This document shows positions 3,214-36,422 of a stretch of DNA of 36,457 nucleotides, piece after piece. The position numbers and the translations under genes are program-made. Location: contig DVHB01000075.1 of assembly GCA_018712405.1 (NCBI GenBank), positions 1 to 36,457 on the forward strand, written 5' to 3'. Source of the stretch: Candidatus Coproplasma stercoripullorum. Lineage in GTDB: Bacteria > Bacillota > Clostridia > Christensenellales > Borkfalkiaceae. Each line of letters opens with the position of its first letter. The first letter of the stretch is position 1. The notes beneath the pieces are model-generated. The model was not told the origin of the DNA and searched no databases. It was given only the letters and a program-made list of their open reading frames with translations.

Positions 3214-4692
3214 ATGAATATATATATGACAAAAAAAGTAATTTATTTTGATAAACTCTGCGACTTTTCGGTGACAGCCGTAACGGAGAACGGAAAACTT
3301 ACAGACTGCCGCTTCAACGCGGAGGACGGTTCCCCGGCCGTTGGCGACATATACCGCGGCAGGGTGGTGAACGTCCTGGAGGGAATGCAGGCGGCATTCG
3401 TCGACTGCGGACTGGAGCGCAACTGCTACCTTTCGGAGGACGACCTTGCGTACGGAACTGAAGGCGGCGTGAGCGCGCTGAAAGCCGGCGACGAAATAAT
3501 GGTGCAGATAACCAAAATCCCGAGCGGCAAGAAGGGCGCAAAGGTGACGCAGAGGATCTCCATAGTCGGAAAAACGCTGATATACCTGCCCGATACCGAT
3601 TTTGTGGGAATATCGCACAGAATAGAGGACGACGAACTGCGCGAGAGCCTGATATTTGCGGCAAAAAATACAAAGAAAAAGAACGAGGGACTGGTAATAC
3701 GCAACTCCGCGCCTTTCTGCAAATACGACCAGATCTCCGACGAACTTAAATTTTTACGCAAAATATACGAGCGCACGGCGGAGGCATACAAGAGCGCAAA
3801 GGCACCCTCGCTCGTGTTTTCCGACTTCAGCATGCCTGTCCGCGTGATGCGCGACTTTACCGAGCACGACGTTTCAAAGATAGTTACAGGCAGCGCCGAA
3901 CAGTACGACGAGATAGCCGACCTTTTGAAGATAATGCCGGGCGGAAAGAAGATAAAACTCGAGCTGTATTCCGGCATGCGCGGCATGCTGGACGAGGCGG
4001 GCATAATAGATCAGATAATCGAAACATGCTCGCCGCGCGTCGAACTGGGGAACGGCGCCTACCTTGTGATAGAGCGCACCGAGGCGCTCACCTCGATAGA
4101 CGTGAACACCGGCGGCTTTATCGGCGACGACAGCCTGGAGTATACCGTGTACCAGACCAACCTCGCCGCCGCGCGCGAGATCGCGCGGCAGATAAAGTTG
4201 CGGGGCATCGGCGGGCTGTTCGTCGTGGATTTTATCGACATGGCCGAACCTGCGCACAGAAAGGCGCTGTGCGACGAGCTGGAGAAGGCGCTTAAAACGG
4301 ACAGGGTGCCATATAAAGTGCTGGCTATGTCAGACTTCGGCCTGGTGGAATTTACGCGCAAACGCTCGGGCGCGGAACTCAGTTTGTTCGTGCTTAAGCC
4401 CTGCCCCGTATGCGGGCGCGGAGAAGACTTTTCCGACGATTTTTACGCCGTACTCGTCCAATCCGAGGCGCTTAAGGCTCTGAGCGATGGAGCCGAAACC
4501 GTGTGCATAGAGCTGCGGCCCGAAGCCGCCGCGGCGCTGGCAAAAAAAGTGGGTTTAGGCGACAGCATACGCGCAAAATTCCCCTCGGCAGAAGTCTGCC
4601 TCATCCCTGACGACTCAAAAAAGAGCCGCGAGATCGGCTGCCGAAGGGAAAAGAGGGGATATATCCCCAAGGAAAAGGCAATAAAAATTTAG
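3214..4692 (+). CDS. rng: Ribonuclease E/G family protein
   Basis: S1-like N-terminus 'GDIYRGRVVNVLEGMQAAFVDCGLERNCYL', 'SIDVNTGGFIG', 'GGLFVVDFIDM', zinc-link 'CPVCGRG'; ORF extends to 3190 but ATG at 3214 preferred. Confidence 0.92.
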   Translation: MNIYMTKKVIYFDKLCDFSVTAVTENGKLTDCRFNAEDGSPAVGDIYRGRVVNVLEGMQAAFVDCGLERNCYLSEDDLAYGTEGGVSALKAGDEIMVQITKIPSGKKGAKVTQRISIVGKTLIYLPDTDFVGISHRIEDDELRESLIFAAKNTKKKNEGLVIRNSAPFCKYDQISDELKFLRKIYERTAEAYKSAKAPSLVFSDFSMPVRVMRDFTEHDVSKIVTGSAEQYDEIADLLKIMPGGKKIKLELYSGMRGMLDEAGIIDQIIETCSPRVELGNGAYLVIERTEALTSIDVNTGGFIGDDSLEYTVYQTNLAAAREIARQIKLRGIGGLFVVDFIDMAEPAHRKALCDELEKALKTDRVPYKVLAMSDFGLVEFTRKRSGAELSLFVLKPCPVCGRGEDFSDDFYAVLVQSEALKALSDGAETVCIELRPEAAAALAKKVGLGDSIRAKFPSAEVCLIPDDSKKSREIGCRREKRGYIPKEKAIKI

Positions 4693-4734
4693 AACGCGCG
4701 GCGCACCGAAACTGCACCGGACGTATAAAAAAGA

Positions 4735-4766
4735 GCGTGGTGCAAATTTGCGCCACGCCTTTTTCG
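4735..4766 (+). terminator. Intrinsic terminator of rng operon
   Basis: GCGTGGTGCAAA/TTTGCGCCACGC 12-bp stem followed by CTTTTTCG. Confidence 0.8.
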
Positions 4767-4824
4767 TATCGCCGAAAAATTAAAATACGCCGTACACGGC
4801 AAAAAAGAGCGGTGCATGCAGAAC

Positions 4825-5460
4825 TCACTCTTCGTTTAAAACGGTCACCGCGAGCGCAAGTATCCGCTTAAGCGCTCTGCGGCTGAGAATATCCCCCCCC
4901 TGCACGCGCACGCCGCGGCTGTCTATCACATATGTACTGCCGTCTGCGCTGCCGTCGACAATTTTATCGCCGAGGCCGCGCACAACGCTTATCACAGTTT
5001 CATCGGGGTTGTCGGTGACGGGGTTTATGGTATTTATCACACCGGCATATTCGGCCTGAACCATCTCCTGAATGACGACTGCTATGCGTATATCCGCTGC
5101 GGAAAGGCCGCGCGCCGCACGGTAAGCCAGGGCCTTTGGCGTGAACGCGCTGGCATGCACGTCATTTATGCGCCGCAAAATATCAGCCTTTTTTACGTTT
5201 AGATAAGATTCGTGCACGCCGGCGAAGCTGTCGGCGGAGGAGTCTTCGTCGACGGCGGAGGAGCGCACGGCGTAAAGCTTTTTGTCTGAAAACAGACGGT
5301 CGATTTCGGCTGCCAGACGGACGTCGTCGCGGTTTGCGCCTATAAAATAACTTGAAGGGCACACATACAGCGCGGGCGTATTTTTTATGCCCATGGAGAG
5401 CAGGTGATAGGCCTTGCCGCCTATTTCGGCGACCGGCGCGACAGTGTTTATAAGTATCAT
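4825..5460 (-). CDS. Stand-alone PEP/pyruvate-binding (PPDK/PEP synthase N-terminal, ATP-grasp-like) domain protein
   Basis: 211 aa; 'GGKAYHLLSMGI', 'YAVRSSAVDEDSSADSFAGVHESYLNV'; no swiveling phosphohistidine or PEP-utilizing C-terminal domains. Confidence 0.7.
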   Translation of the reverse strand: MILINTVAPVAEIGGKAYHLLSMGIKNTPALYVCPSSYFIGANRDDVRLAAEIDRLFSDKKLYAVRSSAVDEDSSADSFAGVHESYLNVKKADILRRINDVHASAFTPKALAYRAARGLSAADIRIAVVIQEMVQAEYAGVINTINPVTDNPDETVISVVRGLGDKIVDGSADGSTYVIDSRGVRVQGGDILSRRALKRILALAVTVLNEE

Positions 5461-5587
5461 AAATAATCCCCAGCAGGCTGCCGCCCCTGCAACGGGCTCC
5501 CGGGGCCTGCGAAAACATTATATCACCCGCCGCCGCATATTGCAATACACATATAGCAACGTCACTGTACCGCGGTGCCGGCGCGAA

Positions 5588-5623
5588 GGGGGCAGCCGCG
5601 AAAATTTTTCCGCGGCTGCCCCC
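5588..5623. terminator. Strong inverted repeat downstream of 145-aa gene
   Basis: GGGGGCAGCCGCG AAAATTTTTC CGCGGCTGCCCCC. Confidence 0.5.
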
Positions 5624-5677
5624 TGTAATTGCGGCATATATGCCGTCCGATTTTACCTTTGAAAGCAAAACCGCCCG

Positions 5678-6115
5678 TCAGAGATATTTTTTGAGCTTGC
5701 GCTCGAATCCCTCTTCGAGAGCGATCAGGCTCGTCAGCAATTCCTTTATCTCCATATCCATATCGCCGGCATCGGTGAGCGTGGTCTTTAAACTTGTTAT
5801 TCCCGTCACCGTGCCTTTTATCATCATCTGCGCAATGTGCTGGGCAGAATTGTCGGCGACGGTATTCATCTTTATCGCCGACCACATCATGGCCTTTTTT
5901 ACCGGATTCGGCTCCTTTATCTCTATATTGAACTTTTTGGCGAGCTGTGCCGCCCTGCCCGAGATGTGTTCATACTCCTCGTGCTCGCGCTTGATCTCTT
6001 CTTTTATGCCCTCATCGTCTATCTGCGGGAGAATATCCGATATAGACTGCAGCGCAAGCTGAGCGTTGCGGTAAATTTCGGCGAGCACTTCGCTGTCGCA
6101 TTTGGTTTTTTCCAT
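5678..6115 (-). CDS. Hypothetical all-helical protein
   Basis: 145 aa ORF, AGGAGGA-type RBS just upstream (cctccttttta on + strand). Confidence 0.7.
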   Translation of the reverse strand: MEKTKCDSEVLAEIYRNAQLALQSISDILPQIDDEGIKEEIKREHEEYEHISGRAAQLAKKFNIEIKEPNPVKKAMMWSAIKMNTVADNSAQHIAQMMIKGTVTGITSLKTTLTDAGDMDMEIKELLTSLIALEEGFERKLKKYL

Positions 6116-6170
6116 ACATCCTCCTTTTTACTGAGTATGTGCAGACGACGCAAAATAATTTACGCATGCA

Positions 6171-6210
6171 AAAATAGCGCGCCGCGGCTATGCCGCGGCG
6201 CGCTATTTTT
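6171..6210. terminator. Bidirectional terminator-like hairpin
   Basis: AAAATAGCGCGCCGCGGC TAT GCCGCGGCGCGCTATTTTT. Confidence 0.7.
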
Positions 6211-6268
6211 GCCATATATAGGGGGCAATTGCACTTTGATGAATGTGACGGCCGCATACGCCGTCCTG

Positions 6269-6931
6269 TTACGCCCACTCGAAATTTTCCTTTCCGGCAC
6301 CGGCCTCGAAATGGTATTTCGCTATGCCGAGGTCTATCTTTGTATAAAACCCGTTCCCCGCTTCGGCATGCACGGTGCGGCCGTCTAAACTAAATCTGAA
6401 CTGCTGCTGGTTCATGGCCGTGGGCGCAAGCAGAGCCGCCTCCACCCCCTTTGCGAACCATCCGGGCGCGTTCTGCGCCCCGCCTGTCTGCGCGGCGGAC
6501 TTGCTGTTATGGGCGACGCCTTCAGTCGAGCCATAGCCTATTGCCAGCACGCACACCAGCTTTTCGCCCGTCCCGACAGTGAAGGCCGACTTCACCTTTT
6601 TATATGTGAGCGCCACCCAGCAGGTGTTGAGGCCGAGCGTCTGCGCATAAAGCGCCAGCCTTTCGCCGAAATAACCGACGCGCTCCTGAAGATCGGGAGC
6701 TTTTTTGCCGACGAGCGCCACATAGTTTTTTACGCCAGAAAACTTGCCGTAATGCGCCATGAGTCCGCCGAACGCCCGCTCTTCGTCGGTGACGAGCTGA
6801 AAGTTCAGCCCTCCCTCCGCATTGCAACTTTTTATTTCGGCCTGCAGCTTTTCACGCAGGTCGGCGGCTATCGGCTTATCGAGATAGCTGCGCACCGAGT
6901 GCCTTTTTTGCATTGCTTCGATGATATCCAT
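6269..6931 (-). CDS. Nitroreductase family protein
   Basis: 'MDIIEAMQKRHSVRSYLDKPI', 'LNTCWVALTYKK', 'ALLAPTAMNQQQFRFSLDG'; RBS AAGGAG 9 nt before ATG at 6931 (ORF track start 7057 is too far upstream). Confidence 0.85.
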   Translation of the reverse strand: MDIIEAMQKRHSVRSYLDKPIAADLREKLQAEIKSCNAEGGLNFQLVTDEERAFGGLMAHYGKFSGVKNYVALVGKKAPDLQERVGYFGERLALYAQTLGLNTCWVALTYKKVKSAFTVGTGEKLVCVLAIGYGSTEGVAHNSKSAAQTGGAQNAPGWFAKGVEAALLAPTAMNQQQFRFSLDGRTVHAEAGNGFYTKIDLGIAKYHFEAGAGKENFEWA

Positions 6932-6974
6932 GAATGAATACTCCTTATTTTTCATTAATTGCGTTTTTATCAAA

Positions 6975-6995
6975 ATAGCTAATGGTGTTAGATAT
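6975..6995. promoter_or_regulatory. Putative MarR operator upstream of nitroreductase
   Basis: ATAGCTAA-TGGTG-TTAGATAT; arms identical to the reverse complement of the site at 7449-7469. Confidence 0.6.
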
Positions 6996-7025
6996 TTTAT
7001 CGTTATAAATTCCCGCGCGCCGCGT

Positions 7026-7436
7026 TCAGCCGAACAATTTCTGAGCAGCCGCCACAAACTGAGCGGCCTCTTCAGGCGTAAGTTTCATGAGCGCGTTCTC
7101 CGTAAAAGACCATACTTCGCGTTCCCGCTCTTCAAGCGCCTGCCGCCCCTGCTCAGTCAGCTCAAGCACCACTTTGCGTCCGTCGCTCTGCGCTCTTGCG
7201 TGCCGCAGATATTTCTTACGCGCGAGCGCTCTGATGAGCGCGGCCACGCGCGCCGTAGAGACGTTCATCTTTTTCGCAAGGTCACCTGCAAGCAACGGCA
7301 ACCGGCTCTCGCGCAAAATTCTGAGCGCGACAAACTCGCCCCTGTAGCCCGATTCGAGCAGCTCGACTACCTGCTGCCCTCCTTTGCCGGAAAACGTCAT
7401 GCAGAGCGTCTTTGCCATACGGGAATAGTCGGCCAT
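7026..7436 (-). CDS. MarR family transcriptional regulator
   Basis: wHTH 'GDLAKKMNVSTARVAALIRALARKKYLRHARAQSDGRKVVLELTEQGR'; RBS GGAGGGGG before ATG at 7436. Confidence 0.88.
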   Translation of the reverse strand: MADYSRMAKTLCMTFSGKGGQQVVELLESGYRGEFVALRILRESRLPLLAGDLAKKMNVSTARVAALIRALARKKYLRHARAQSDGRKVVLELTEQGRQALEEREREVWSFTENALMKLTPEEAAQFVAAAQKLFG

Positions 7437-26625: not shown

Positions 26626-26659
26626 AATGCGCCGCGCGGCTTCTGCCGCGCGGCGCATT
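26626..26659. terminator. Perfect 15-bp-stem hairpin downstream of uxaC
   Basis: AATGCGCCGCGCGGC TTCT GCCGCGCGGCGCATT. Confidence 0.65.
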
Positions 26660-26691
26660 AATTTTCACCTTATTATACCTGCCAATAATGA

Positions 26692-26807
26692 CCTCGGAGA
26701 TGCGAGCAGTACGCGGAGCTGACGGAACGCCGCGAAGGGGCTTACTAAAGCGTAAGTGACTGAACGAAACCGTAACAGCGACAATGTAATGCGACGCATA
26801 TGCGAGG
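26692..26807. repeat. Dispersed intergenic element, family 3, copy 1 (13 bp after uxaC stop)
   Basis: CCTCGGAGATGCGAGCA ... CTTAC-TAAAGC-GTAAG-TGAC ... TGCGACGCATATGCGAGG; related to 33273-33387. Confidence 0.7.
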
Positions 26808-26820
26808 GCAGGCGGAGCAC

Positions 26821-28239
26821 TTAATCAGTGAAGCCGAAATAAGAAGCGGCGTTGTTGTAGCACACATCCTCCACAATCTTTTCGAGAGTCTTTATCTCCG
26901 AAGCGGGATAGAGGCCGTTTTCGACGAGGTTGCCGAGCATGTTGCAGAGTATTCTGCGATAGAGCTCGTGGCGGGGATATGAGAGGAAGGAACGGCTGTC
27001 GGTGAGCATGCCAACAGACTGAGCAACAAGGCCGACCTGCATCAGAGTTTCAAGATTCTGCTTCATGCCGTCGATCTGATCGAGGAACCACCACGCGGTG
27101 CCGACCTGTACGCGGCCCTTCATGCCCTCCTTCTGGAAACAGCCTGCGAGCACGGTGAGCGCATAGTTGTCGCGGTTGTTGAGGCAGTATAAAATGGTCT
27201 TGGGCAGGGCGTTTTCCATATCGAGCGCGCCCAGGAGGGCGGAGAGCTTGGCCATGTACACCTCGTCGCCGATAGCGTCGAAGCCGGTGTCGGGGCCTAT
27301 CTTTTTAAGCATGGTCTTTGAGTTGTTTCTGAGAGCGCCGATGTGGTACTGCTGTACCCAGCCGTGCTTTGCATACTGCTTGCCGAGGAATACGAGGATA
27401 TAGCCCTTATACTTATCCTGCTCCTCGTCGGTGATATGCTCGCCCTTCATGCCCTTCAAGAATACGGCGTTGGCCTCTTCGTAGGTTGCGGGGGCGTAAT
27501 GCACGACATCGAGCGCGTGGTCGGATACGCGCGCGCCCATGGAATCGAAGAAGTCGACCCTTGCCTCAAGCGCGTTGCACATATCCTCGAGCGTGGAAAT
27601 GGGCTTTCCCCAGACGTCTGCAAGCTGCTTTACCCAGGGGGCGAACCACTCCAGCTCCACATTTATCGCCTTATCGGGACGGAACGCGGGGCGCACCTTT
27701 ACCTTTAAGGTCTTGTCCTCCGCCATCTTCTTGTGCCACTCGAGGCTGTCGACGGGATCGTCGGTGGTGCAAACCGTTTTAACGTTGAACTTATACATCA
27801 TCTCACGCGCGGTGAGGGTTTCCAGCTTTTTGTTGGCTTCGTTCCAGATCTTATCGGCGTTTGCGGGGCAGATTATGTCCTTTATGCCGAAATAGCGCTG
27901 CATCTCGAGATGCGACCAGGTATAGAGAGGATTGCCAACAAAATAGGGCATAGAGTCGACAAACTGCCTATATTTCTTGTAATCGTCGTCGGGACCGGAG
28001 ATGGAGTCCTCCTCGTATCCCCTTGCGCGGAGAGCGCGCCACTTATAATGGTCGCCATACCTGTCGCCGGCGCCCAGCCAAGCCTCGGCGAGGTTGCGGA
28101 ACTTCTTGTCCTCGTATATTTCCTTCGGGGGGAGATGACAGTGATAGTCGATTATGGGCATATCCTCGGCGTGTTCGTGATACAGTTTTCTCGCCGTCTC
28201 TGTCTCCAACAGAAAATCTTTATCCATAAAATCTTTCAT
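26821..28239 (-). CDS. uxaC: Glucuronate isomerase
   Basis: 'KDFLLETETARKLYHEHAEDMPIIDYHCHLPPKEIYEDKKFRNLAEAWLGAGDRYGDHYKWRALRARG', 'CTTDDPVDSLEWH', 'LTDSRSFLSYPRHEYFRR'-like C-terminus. Confidence 0.96.
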   Translation of the reverse strand: MKDFMDKDFLLETETARKLYHEHAEDMPIIDYHCHLPPKEIYEDKKFRNLAEAWLGAGDRYGDHYKWRALRARGYEEDSISGPDDDYKKYRQFVDSMPYFVGNPLYTWSHLEMQRYFGIKDIICPANADKIWNEANKKLETLTAREMMYKFNVKTVCTTDDPVDSLEWHKKMAEDKTLKVKVRPAFRPDKAINVELEWFAPWVKQLADVWGKPISTLEDMCNALEARVDFFDSMGARVSDHALDVVHYAPATYEEANAVFLKGMKGEHITDEEQDKYKGYILVFLGKQYAKHGWVQQYHIGALRNNSKTMLKKIGPDTGFDAIGDEVYMAKLSALLGALDMENALPKTILYCLNNRDNYALTVLAGCFQKEGMKGRVQVGTAWWFLDQIDGMKQNLETLMQVGLVAQSVGMLTDSRSFLSYPRHELYRRILCNMLGNLVENGLYPASEIKTLEKIVEDVCYNNAASYFGFTD

Positions 28240-32725: not shown

Positions 32726-32795
32726 AGATGAGGAGCCAGCTCCTCTGTCTGCGATTTTTAAAGGCTCACCTTTTATATAATCGCAGACATTCACC

Positions 32796-32821
32796 TTTGC
32801 TGAGGCTGCTGCCTCAGCAAA
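32796..32821. repeat. Perfect hairpin
   Basis: TTTGCTGAGGC TGCT GCCTCAGCAAA. Confidence 0.8.
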
Positions 32822-32837
32822 TTGGGTCTTGCAGCAC

Positions 32838-32969
32838 AGGACGAATGAGGCATTTCATAGCACAATGGACACCCATTGTGCGTGGCGAAATGAGATGAAC
32901 AAGCGCATAAGCAAAAGCGCTTGCGGTGACCGAGCCGCCATGCCATTACTTTAATGGCGGCGAGACACC
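32838..32969 (+). repeat. Dispersed intergenic element, family 2, copy B
   Basis: AGGACGAA..CATTTC..GCACAATGG ACAC CCATTGTGC..GGTGACCGAG-CCGCCAT..ATGGCGG-CGAGACACC. Confidence 0.75.
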
Positions 32970-33063
32970 CTGCTTGCAACGTAAGTATTTTGAAATATGT
33001 TCACGCAAATCGCCCTGCCTCCCATTTTAGGGGAGGTGCCGCATAGCGGCGGAGGGGTTCTCT

Positions 33064-33272: not shown

Positions 33273-33387
33273 CCTCGGAGATGCGAGCAAGACCAGGAAA
33301 GCGAGCATTTACGACGGGGAGCGTACACTGACGTACGTGACCCGAGGAAAGCGGAGCCTGACACCGTATTGCGAAGCATATACGAGG
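33273..33387. repeat. Dispersed intergenic element, family 3, copy 2 (18 bp after kduI stop)
   Basis: CCTCGGAGATGCGAGCAA ... CGTAC-ACTGAC-GTACG-TGAC ... TTGCGAAGCATATACGAGG. Confidence 0.7.
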
Positions 33388-33405: not shown

Positions 33406-34275
33406 TTAGCGCAGGTCCTTCGTGGCGATATTATCCATATCATCATACGTCTGGTTCTCGCCGCACATGCCCCAGATAAAGGTGTAATTCATTGTGCCCA
33501 CGCCCGTGTGGATGGACCAGCTGGGGGAGATGACGGCCTGCTCGTTGTGCATGACGATGTGGCGCGTCTCCTGCGGGGTGCCCATGAGATGGAACACCGC
33601 CTCGGTTTCGGGAAGTTCGAAGTACATATAAACTTCCATGCGTCTTTCGTGCGTGTGGCTGGGAAGGGTATTCCACGCGCTGCCCACGTCGAGCTCGGTC
33701 ATGCCCATGGAGAGCTGGCAGCTTTGGCACACGCCGCCGATTATGAACTGGTTGATGGTGCGCTTGTTCATGCCCTCAACCGTGCCGAGGTGGCGCTGTA
33801 TGCAGTACGCCGTGCCCTCGGGTGCGGGAACGCCCTCTACGGGCTTGGTTATCTTTACCGTGGGGTACGACTTGTGCGCGGGGCTGGAGTTGAGATAGAA
33901 CTTGGCGGGCTTTGAAGGGTCGTCGGAGGCGAAGGTGACTTCCTTGGTGCCCATGCCGATATATATGCCCTCTTTAAAGCCGATGTTATAGACCTTGCCG
34001 TCGAGCGTGATAGTGCCCGCGCCGCCGATGTTTATAACGCCCATTTCGCGCCTTTCCAAAAAGAAGTTGGTGGCAAGCTCTTTGAACGTGCCCAAAGATA
34101 ACTTTTCTTTGACAGGCATGGCGCCGCCCGCGATTATCCTGTCCTGATGAGAGTACGTAAGTAAAATGTCGTCCTCCGCGAACAGTTTTTCGATCAGATA
34201 TTTTTCCCGAAGCTCCTTTGTATCGTAATGTTTGGAATCGTCGGGATGATTTGCATACCTTATGTCAAATTTCAT
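33406..34275 (-). CDS. kduI: 5-dehydro-4-deoxy-D-glucuronate isomerase
   Basis: '[32 protein letters not shown]', '[35 protein letters not shown]', '[19 protein letters not shown]'. Confidence 0.96.
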
Positions 34276-36200: not shown

Positions 36201-36379
36201 AAAAATATTTTCTCCTTAAAACTATAACTTTAAAAATATTATTTAATTGATTATCGATTTAATTTTTTTACACGTCAAAATATTTGAATTAAATTTCTAA
36301 AATAATTGACGGCGCAAGCAGGGTTTCCCTGCGCCAGCGCGACCCAATTTGTCGCGAAAGCGAGCTCACCTGAGGTGAA

Positions 36380-36422
36380 TTTGCGCAATTATGCGCTCCG
36401 TGGGCCCTTAAAATTGCGCAAA
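36380..36422. repeat. Interrupted inverted repeat upstream of kdgK
   Basis: TTTGCGCAATT ... AATTGCGCAAA, 11-bp perfect arms. Confidence 0.6.

Follow-up and report, generated by a model that had tools for sequence, protein, structure and literature searches.

Rod-shaped structured elements abut the stop codons of housekeeping genes in gut Clostridia

The attC sites of integrons lie behind the stop codon of a gene, fold as the bottom (antisense) strand and keep their structure while their sequence varies. Rod-like inserts with variable complementary arms occur at or within rRNA in the form of intervening sequences and pre-rRNA processing stems, and repeats of the bcr and ERIC type, the latter likewise intergenic, measure about 100-150 bp. 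REP/BIME elements and GTAG/CGTC palindromes are high-copy, intergenic and mostly located downstream of genes, to which they sometimes supply the stop codon (PMC3733652), and the bcr1-bcr18 repeats are structured and found in untranslated regions and within operons (PMC3446304).

Two structured elements, here termed rod A and rod B, lie directly behind the minus-strand genes uxaC and kduI in the window, the whole stretch of 36,457 nucleotides of DNA that was analysed; the nearest named records of its uxaC gene are from Candidatus Coproplasma. Scores of the rods are those of the covariance model R1, and genes were called by a codon model that had been trained on the window. The features are:

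26628-26657, no strand assigned: hairpin rich in G+C on the distal side of rod A, probably the terminator of the uxaC operon
26660-26673, plus strand: conserved distal flank motif of rod A, AATTTTCACCTTAT (in gene orientation ATAAGGTGAAAATT)
26692-26807, plus strand: rod A, structured element directly after uxaC (126.3 bits, E 1.8e-27)
26692-26696 and 26803-26807: closing arms of rod A, CCTCG and CGAGG
26741-26760, plus strand: apical hairpin of rod A, CTTAC (26741-26745) and GTAAG (26752-26756), then TGAC
26821-28239, minus strand: uxaC, glucuronate isomerase (PF02614, E 8e-192), stop codon 13 nt from rod A
33273-33387, plus strand: rod B, structured element directly after kduI (93.5 bits, E 2.1e-19)
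33273-33277 and 33383-33387: closing arms of rod B, CCTCG and CGAGG
33322-33341, plus strand: apical hairpin of rod B, CGTAC (33322-33326) and GTACG (33333-33337), then TGAC
33406-34275, minus strand: kduI (PF04962, E 3e-22), stop codon 18 nt from rod B

Both sequences, their arms and hairpins and the spacings of 13 and 18 nt to the stop codons are thus as the original prediction had described them. A DNA search of the 1.70 Mb genome with rod A returned 21 matches including the query, that is 20 further places, with E-values down to 3e-34; with these matches and the 50 copies of the covariance model the two rods are far from a chance resemblance. Rod B has a true orthologue in genome G046 with a core identity of 0.95-0.96. 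Sequence common to the copies extends past both arms, with approximately CAACATTCTAATTACKCCGCY before and GTTATTNNGC...ATAAGGTGAAAATT after the rod in gene orientation. A G+C-rich hairpin similar to the one distal to rod A also follows uxaC in L127, a locus without a rod. A promoter for antisense RNA in the distal TTTTCACC motif was considered and rejected, as judged by eye its spacing to an ATAAC motif seemed variable and the start would fall inside the stem.

The two rods belong to a dispersed family, as had been predicted. R1, for which 34 copies from several genomes were used, recovered 50 copies in the source genome (genus Candidatus Coproplasma) and matches in 99 of 150 nearby genomes, spread over 17 of 53 genera, as well as in 31 of the 391 genomes of a class-wide sample. 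The genomes are mostly incomplete metagenome-assembled genomes, and copy numbers per genome in the wide searches are to be read as 'at least'. The window gave no match in Rfam 15 at the gathering score, a relaxed search yielded weak unrelated matches only (snoRNA sR23 and BSnc120, far under their cut-offs), and no description of the family was found in the open-licence papers searched. The family thus represents undescribed rod-shaped structured elements of gut Clostridia, about 115-130 nt in length. Rods also form tandem head-to-tail arrays of two to four members with periods of about 123-147 nt (G002:C3:157174-157673 and G046:C3:49261-49682), and in genome G120 tandem rods with a spacing of about 124 occur at many loci.

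Scans of viral collections led to four contigs that were examined, three with R1 matches and one a clear phage case, of the HK97 type, whose major head gene is followed by a rod. A viral contig of high G+C content holds another match (L399, 4840-4968), weak at 39.8 bits and with the same apical motif, which stands close to where a minus-strand gene starts and not behind a stop codon. Three further weak matches directly behind apparent tRNA 3′ ends (L376, L387 and L382, at G137:C3:115822, C12:71952 and C12:72285) may be unrelated hairpins.

On the plus strand each window copy folds into one long rod composed of the closing stem, short helices separated by small internal loops, several of which are tandem G.A, and the apical hairpin; in rod A, where this strand is antisense to uxaC, a conserved G.U pair joins positions 26740 and 26757 and the TGAC belongs to a tandem G.A loop. 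The covarying hairpin arms noted for the two window copies extend to a very strong covariation of the family, with double changes that preserve pairing at 26 of 35 pairs. Throughout four genomes the more stable fold belongs to the strand that is antisense to the gene upstream, in 122 of 125 copies with RNA parameters and in 123 of 125 with DNA parameters. Its paired columns hold 93 variable G-U cells versus 49 A-C cells, the one conserved G.U pair, kept in 121 of 125 copies, being left out of this count. On the sense strand the G.U pairs turn into A.C and the G.A loops into U.C, although this pyrimidine-rich strand still folds, with a mean of -37 kcal/mol. Because the best-folding strand is antisense to the genes, the family is not simply an mRNA 3′-UTR structure.

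The suggested preference for gene 3′ ends proved strong. Directly behind a same-direction stop codon lie 43 of the 50 copies of the source genome and, within 40 nt, 113 of about 114 primary copies of the four genomes, most of the post-stop copies at -12 to +30 nt from the stop codon; a single random intergenic insertion would land in this way with a probability of 0.089. The remaining copies are later members of tandem arrays, lie at contig ends or where no clear gene is called, or, in one case, behind a terminator. Beyond these genomes, in other families of the order and the class, the majority of the copies read conform to this post-stop, one-orientation rule. Upstream of the copies stand housekeeping genes of every kind, which encode EF-Tu, NusG, L1, SecY, RF1, GreA, five tRNA synthetases, ClpX, PcrA, PriA, RuvC, QueA, LeuA, UxaC, KduI and others; the enrichment for tRNA synthetases has a rough P of 3e-4, assuming 22 of them among 1600 genes.

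The closing arms vary from copy to copy yet remain complementary. Arms of one and the same copy pair at 0.835 of positions, versus 0.447 when arms are swapped between copies (maximum of 1000 permutations 0.51). In copies whose cores are 0.85-0.95 identical the arms are hardly more alike than in unrelated copies; with cores at 0.90-0.95 arm identity is about 0.5, as between random pairs, and G016 C1:7156 and C6:40244 combine a core identity of 0.94 with an arm identity of 0.25. Conversely, at the SecY site two species share the same stem with cores that are only 0.73 identical. Behind NadC in three species and QueA in G122 and G378 the last stretch of the coding sequence itself forms the gene-side arm, and the far arm mirrors it. 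The terminal stems are therefore uncoupled from the core. Complementary arms are known to arise by template switching (PMC8794818), and the stems may be renewed by this process or, as another route, by selection for the stem. Another palindromic repeat, AAAGGGGGGAAGGCTTGCC..., which constitutes a further dispersed family, breaks the distal arm of several copies in G016, such as G016:C1:98854 and C3:32056.

Occupancy of gene ends turns over. A copy is present at only about a dozen of 80 orthologous uxaC loci and missing from several nearest relatives, and the empty sites are too diverged for an insertion site or a target duplication to be read. Because the element is absent from most uxaC orthologues, and because nine genomes of the genus gave no match with R1, it is dispensable. 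Among 57 pairs of copies that occupy the same gene end across the four genomes, 10 have true orthologous cores (0.88-0.98 identity), and in the other 47 the cores are no more similar than those of random copies. Some same-site copies are 93-98% identical, while the 100 nt that follow mostly show no more similarity than unrelated sequences do. About half of the copies are trailed by decayed pieces on their downstream side, in series of up to four; nearly all of these extend to the distal end and have lost the gene-proximal side, that is, they are 3′ pieces. The copy adjoining the gene end is whole and the displaced older ones have mostly decayed to such relics; from this stacking, new copies appear to enter next to the stop codon and displaced ones to decay. 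G002, G046 and G000 each carry near-identical dispersed copies. Pure gene conversion between ancient sites would explain the replacement of cores, not the stacked relics, and is retained as a contributor only.

A second dispersed structured family, with the start TTCACAAAAATTGCGG...CCGCAATTTTTCGTGA followed by ...CGGCAATTCAC...GCAAATTGTGTCTTGC, directly follows the uxaC stop codon in other species (L162, L170, L172, L130, L149, L140, L145 and L163), and relics of the rod family stand behind its copy in L130 and L172. Pieces seemingly related to this second family are also found in the window near 32777-32998 and 36293-36392.

In other Clostridia, rRNA operons contain full-length homologues of the rod, oriented so that the structured strand is transcribed. 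With rRNA 5′ ends placed by Rfam models, rods stop 0-6 nt short of the start of 23S (L410, L411, L415, L419 and L424), of 5S (L411, L415, L419 and L420) and of 16S (L407); in one case (L427) the distance between rod and 5S gene is 74 nt. The transcribed spacer beside a mature 5′ end is the position of the relatives in G345, G282, G508, G267 and G495, not of the window copies. As these homologues are transcribed directly 5′ of 16S, 23S or 5S, it can be argued that the rod acts as RNA, and this placement is the strongest hint that it is an RNA structure. In L410 an insert of 140 nt of the intervening-sequence kind, with complementary ends CATCCAATA...TATTGGATG, was additionally observed at about position 1214 of the 23S gene (4104-7155); it occurs in G345 and G508, not in G267, and in G345 its sequence differs from the rod.

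With the 3′ end of its structured strand, the rod adjoins a protein gene at that gene's 3′ end, where the strand is antisense, or an rRNA at its 5′ end, where the strand is transcribed. The preferred, still tentative, reading of this geometry is that the rod may serve in RNA as a boundary or a cutting signal, by which antisense transcripts are stopped where genes end. In pre-rRNA, the rod would mark where the spacer is cut or trimmed, next to the mature 5′ end. Beside protein genes it would act on antisense transcripts entering from downstream, which would be cut or blocked exactly at the stop codon, and the antisense RNA over an important gene would thereby gain a 5′ end and be degraded, possibly by an RNase J-like 5′-3′ decay. 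Such a signal would explain strand, orientation, position, gene choice and the wholeness of the abutting copy; the greater stability of the antisense fold (122/125), the covariation (26/35), the placement (113 of about 114 against 0.089 by chance), the transcription of the rRNA rods and the housekeeping character of the genes speak for it, as do same-site cores kept at 93-98% and the 3′ relics behind about half of the copies. It has to contend with the dispensability of the element, which most uxaC orthologues lack and which gave no match in nine genomes of the genus, with the other repeat families that occupy the same place after uxaC in relatives, which fits insertion targeting, and with the rod 74 nt off its 5S gene; moreover, a function shared by rRNA and post-stop rods is an analogy, because rods of the two kinds come from different genomes. 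Movement from site to site and stem renewal would proceed by DNA-level copying and template switching, which are proposed because no dedicated enzyme was found. The complete chain, by which a mobile rod of rRNA 5′ ends was placed antisense at housekeeping stop codons, cuts or blocks antisense RNA there and has its stem rewritten from the host's last codons by template switching, is rather improbable in its entirety. An equally serious rival, and one that deserves the same guarded credence, is a selfish non-autonomous element devoid of host function, whose single-stranded antisense hairpin would be inserted at gene ends by some enzyme or by replication-coupled template switching, later insertions entering between the stop codon and older copies. 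It accounts for turnover and relics at least as well as a boundary signal, given the reuse of gene ends with unrelated cores (47 of 57 same-site pairs), the near-identical dispersed copies in G002, G046 and G000, the stacked 5′-truncated relics, the copy in a phage contig and the sporadic presence at uxaC. However, most copy-rich genomes lack a Y1 transposase and those searched have no RVT_1 or integron integrase, the diverged empty sites give no definable target duplication, a single orientation and position is unlike the outcome of insertion plus purifying selection alone, and some same-site copies are 93-98% conserved.

Readings tied to transcription of the host gene fare less well. An element of the mRNA 3′-UTR, as had originally been proposed, could stabilise the mRNA end or support (Rho-dependent) termination behind the last ribosome; its position between stop codon and terminator-like hairpin and the pyrimidine-rich sense strand, which folds too, would suit this role, but G-U pairs and tandem G.A loops are confined to the antisense strand and rRNA operons transcribe the opposite strand, so that we regard it as unlikely. 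Somewhat less plausible still is a DNA-level element, a template-strand hairpin that would absorb DNA freed behind the last ribosome and limit R-loops, or recruit a DNA-binding protein, at the ends of highly transcribed genes. At protein genes the structured strand is indeed the template strand, at the gene end, and DNA parameters give the same polarity (123/125); transcription-linked quasi-palindrome mutations, known from yeast (PMC3820800), also count in its favour, whereas rRNA operons carry the structure on the non-template strand. A coordinating element specific for hexuronate catabolism, suggested by the two window copies behind hexuronate genes, is refuted by the other copies, which stand behind housekeeping genes of every sort. 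Of the first interpretation, then, a dispersed, covarying element that prefers gene ends has stood, and the hexuronate link, the MITE-like shared ends and the mRNA 3′-UTR role have not.

If a boundary function is true, these bacteria would carry a dedicated signal that guards gene ends from antisense RNA and was reused from rRNA processing. Even if selfish, the rod would be an unusual one-orientation marker of stop codons without a known transposase, with stems that match the last codons of the host gene. The family also bears on the origin of compensatory changes in RNA stems, by template switching or by selection, and provides many natural replicates at defined sites.

Among the described classes of elements, a plain MITE, with conserved terminal inverted repeats and insertion in either orientation, was rejected: inverted repeats shared between copies had been predicted from the two window rods, but the arms differ even between near-identical cores, and copies are neither scattered nor inside genes, being essentially all behind stop codons and in a single orientation (113 of about 114). 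A REP/RAYT or IS200 element was set aside since a Y1 transposase is missing from most copy-rich genomes; PF01797 was absent from G002, G016, G006, G009, G014, G024 and G043, and was present in the copy-free G018 and as one gene in G000. Likewise, a retroelement or group II intron remnant finds no reverse transcriptase (no RVT_1 in G000, G002, G016 and G046), and an integron no IntI (no integrase over the cut-off in any of 106 genomes). Like REP/BIME elements, the rods are high-copy intergenic palindromes behind genes; those, however, are 20-40 bp long, frequently form pairs of opposing orientation and are linked to Y1 (RAYT), whereas the rods measure about 120 nt, keep one orientation and mostly occur without Y1. 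Unlike bcr1-bcr18 and ERIC repeats, they strictly abut stop codons in one orientation, with antisense polarity and a host-specific terminal stem. With attC sites they share a folded bottom strand directly after the stop codon and a structure that is kept, but no integrase, cassette arrays or paired R boxes accompany the copies read. In contrast to rRNA intervening sequences, the rods do not fall within the mature rRNA but immediately 5′ of it, and in Coproplasma they stand at protein genes.
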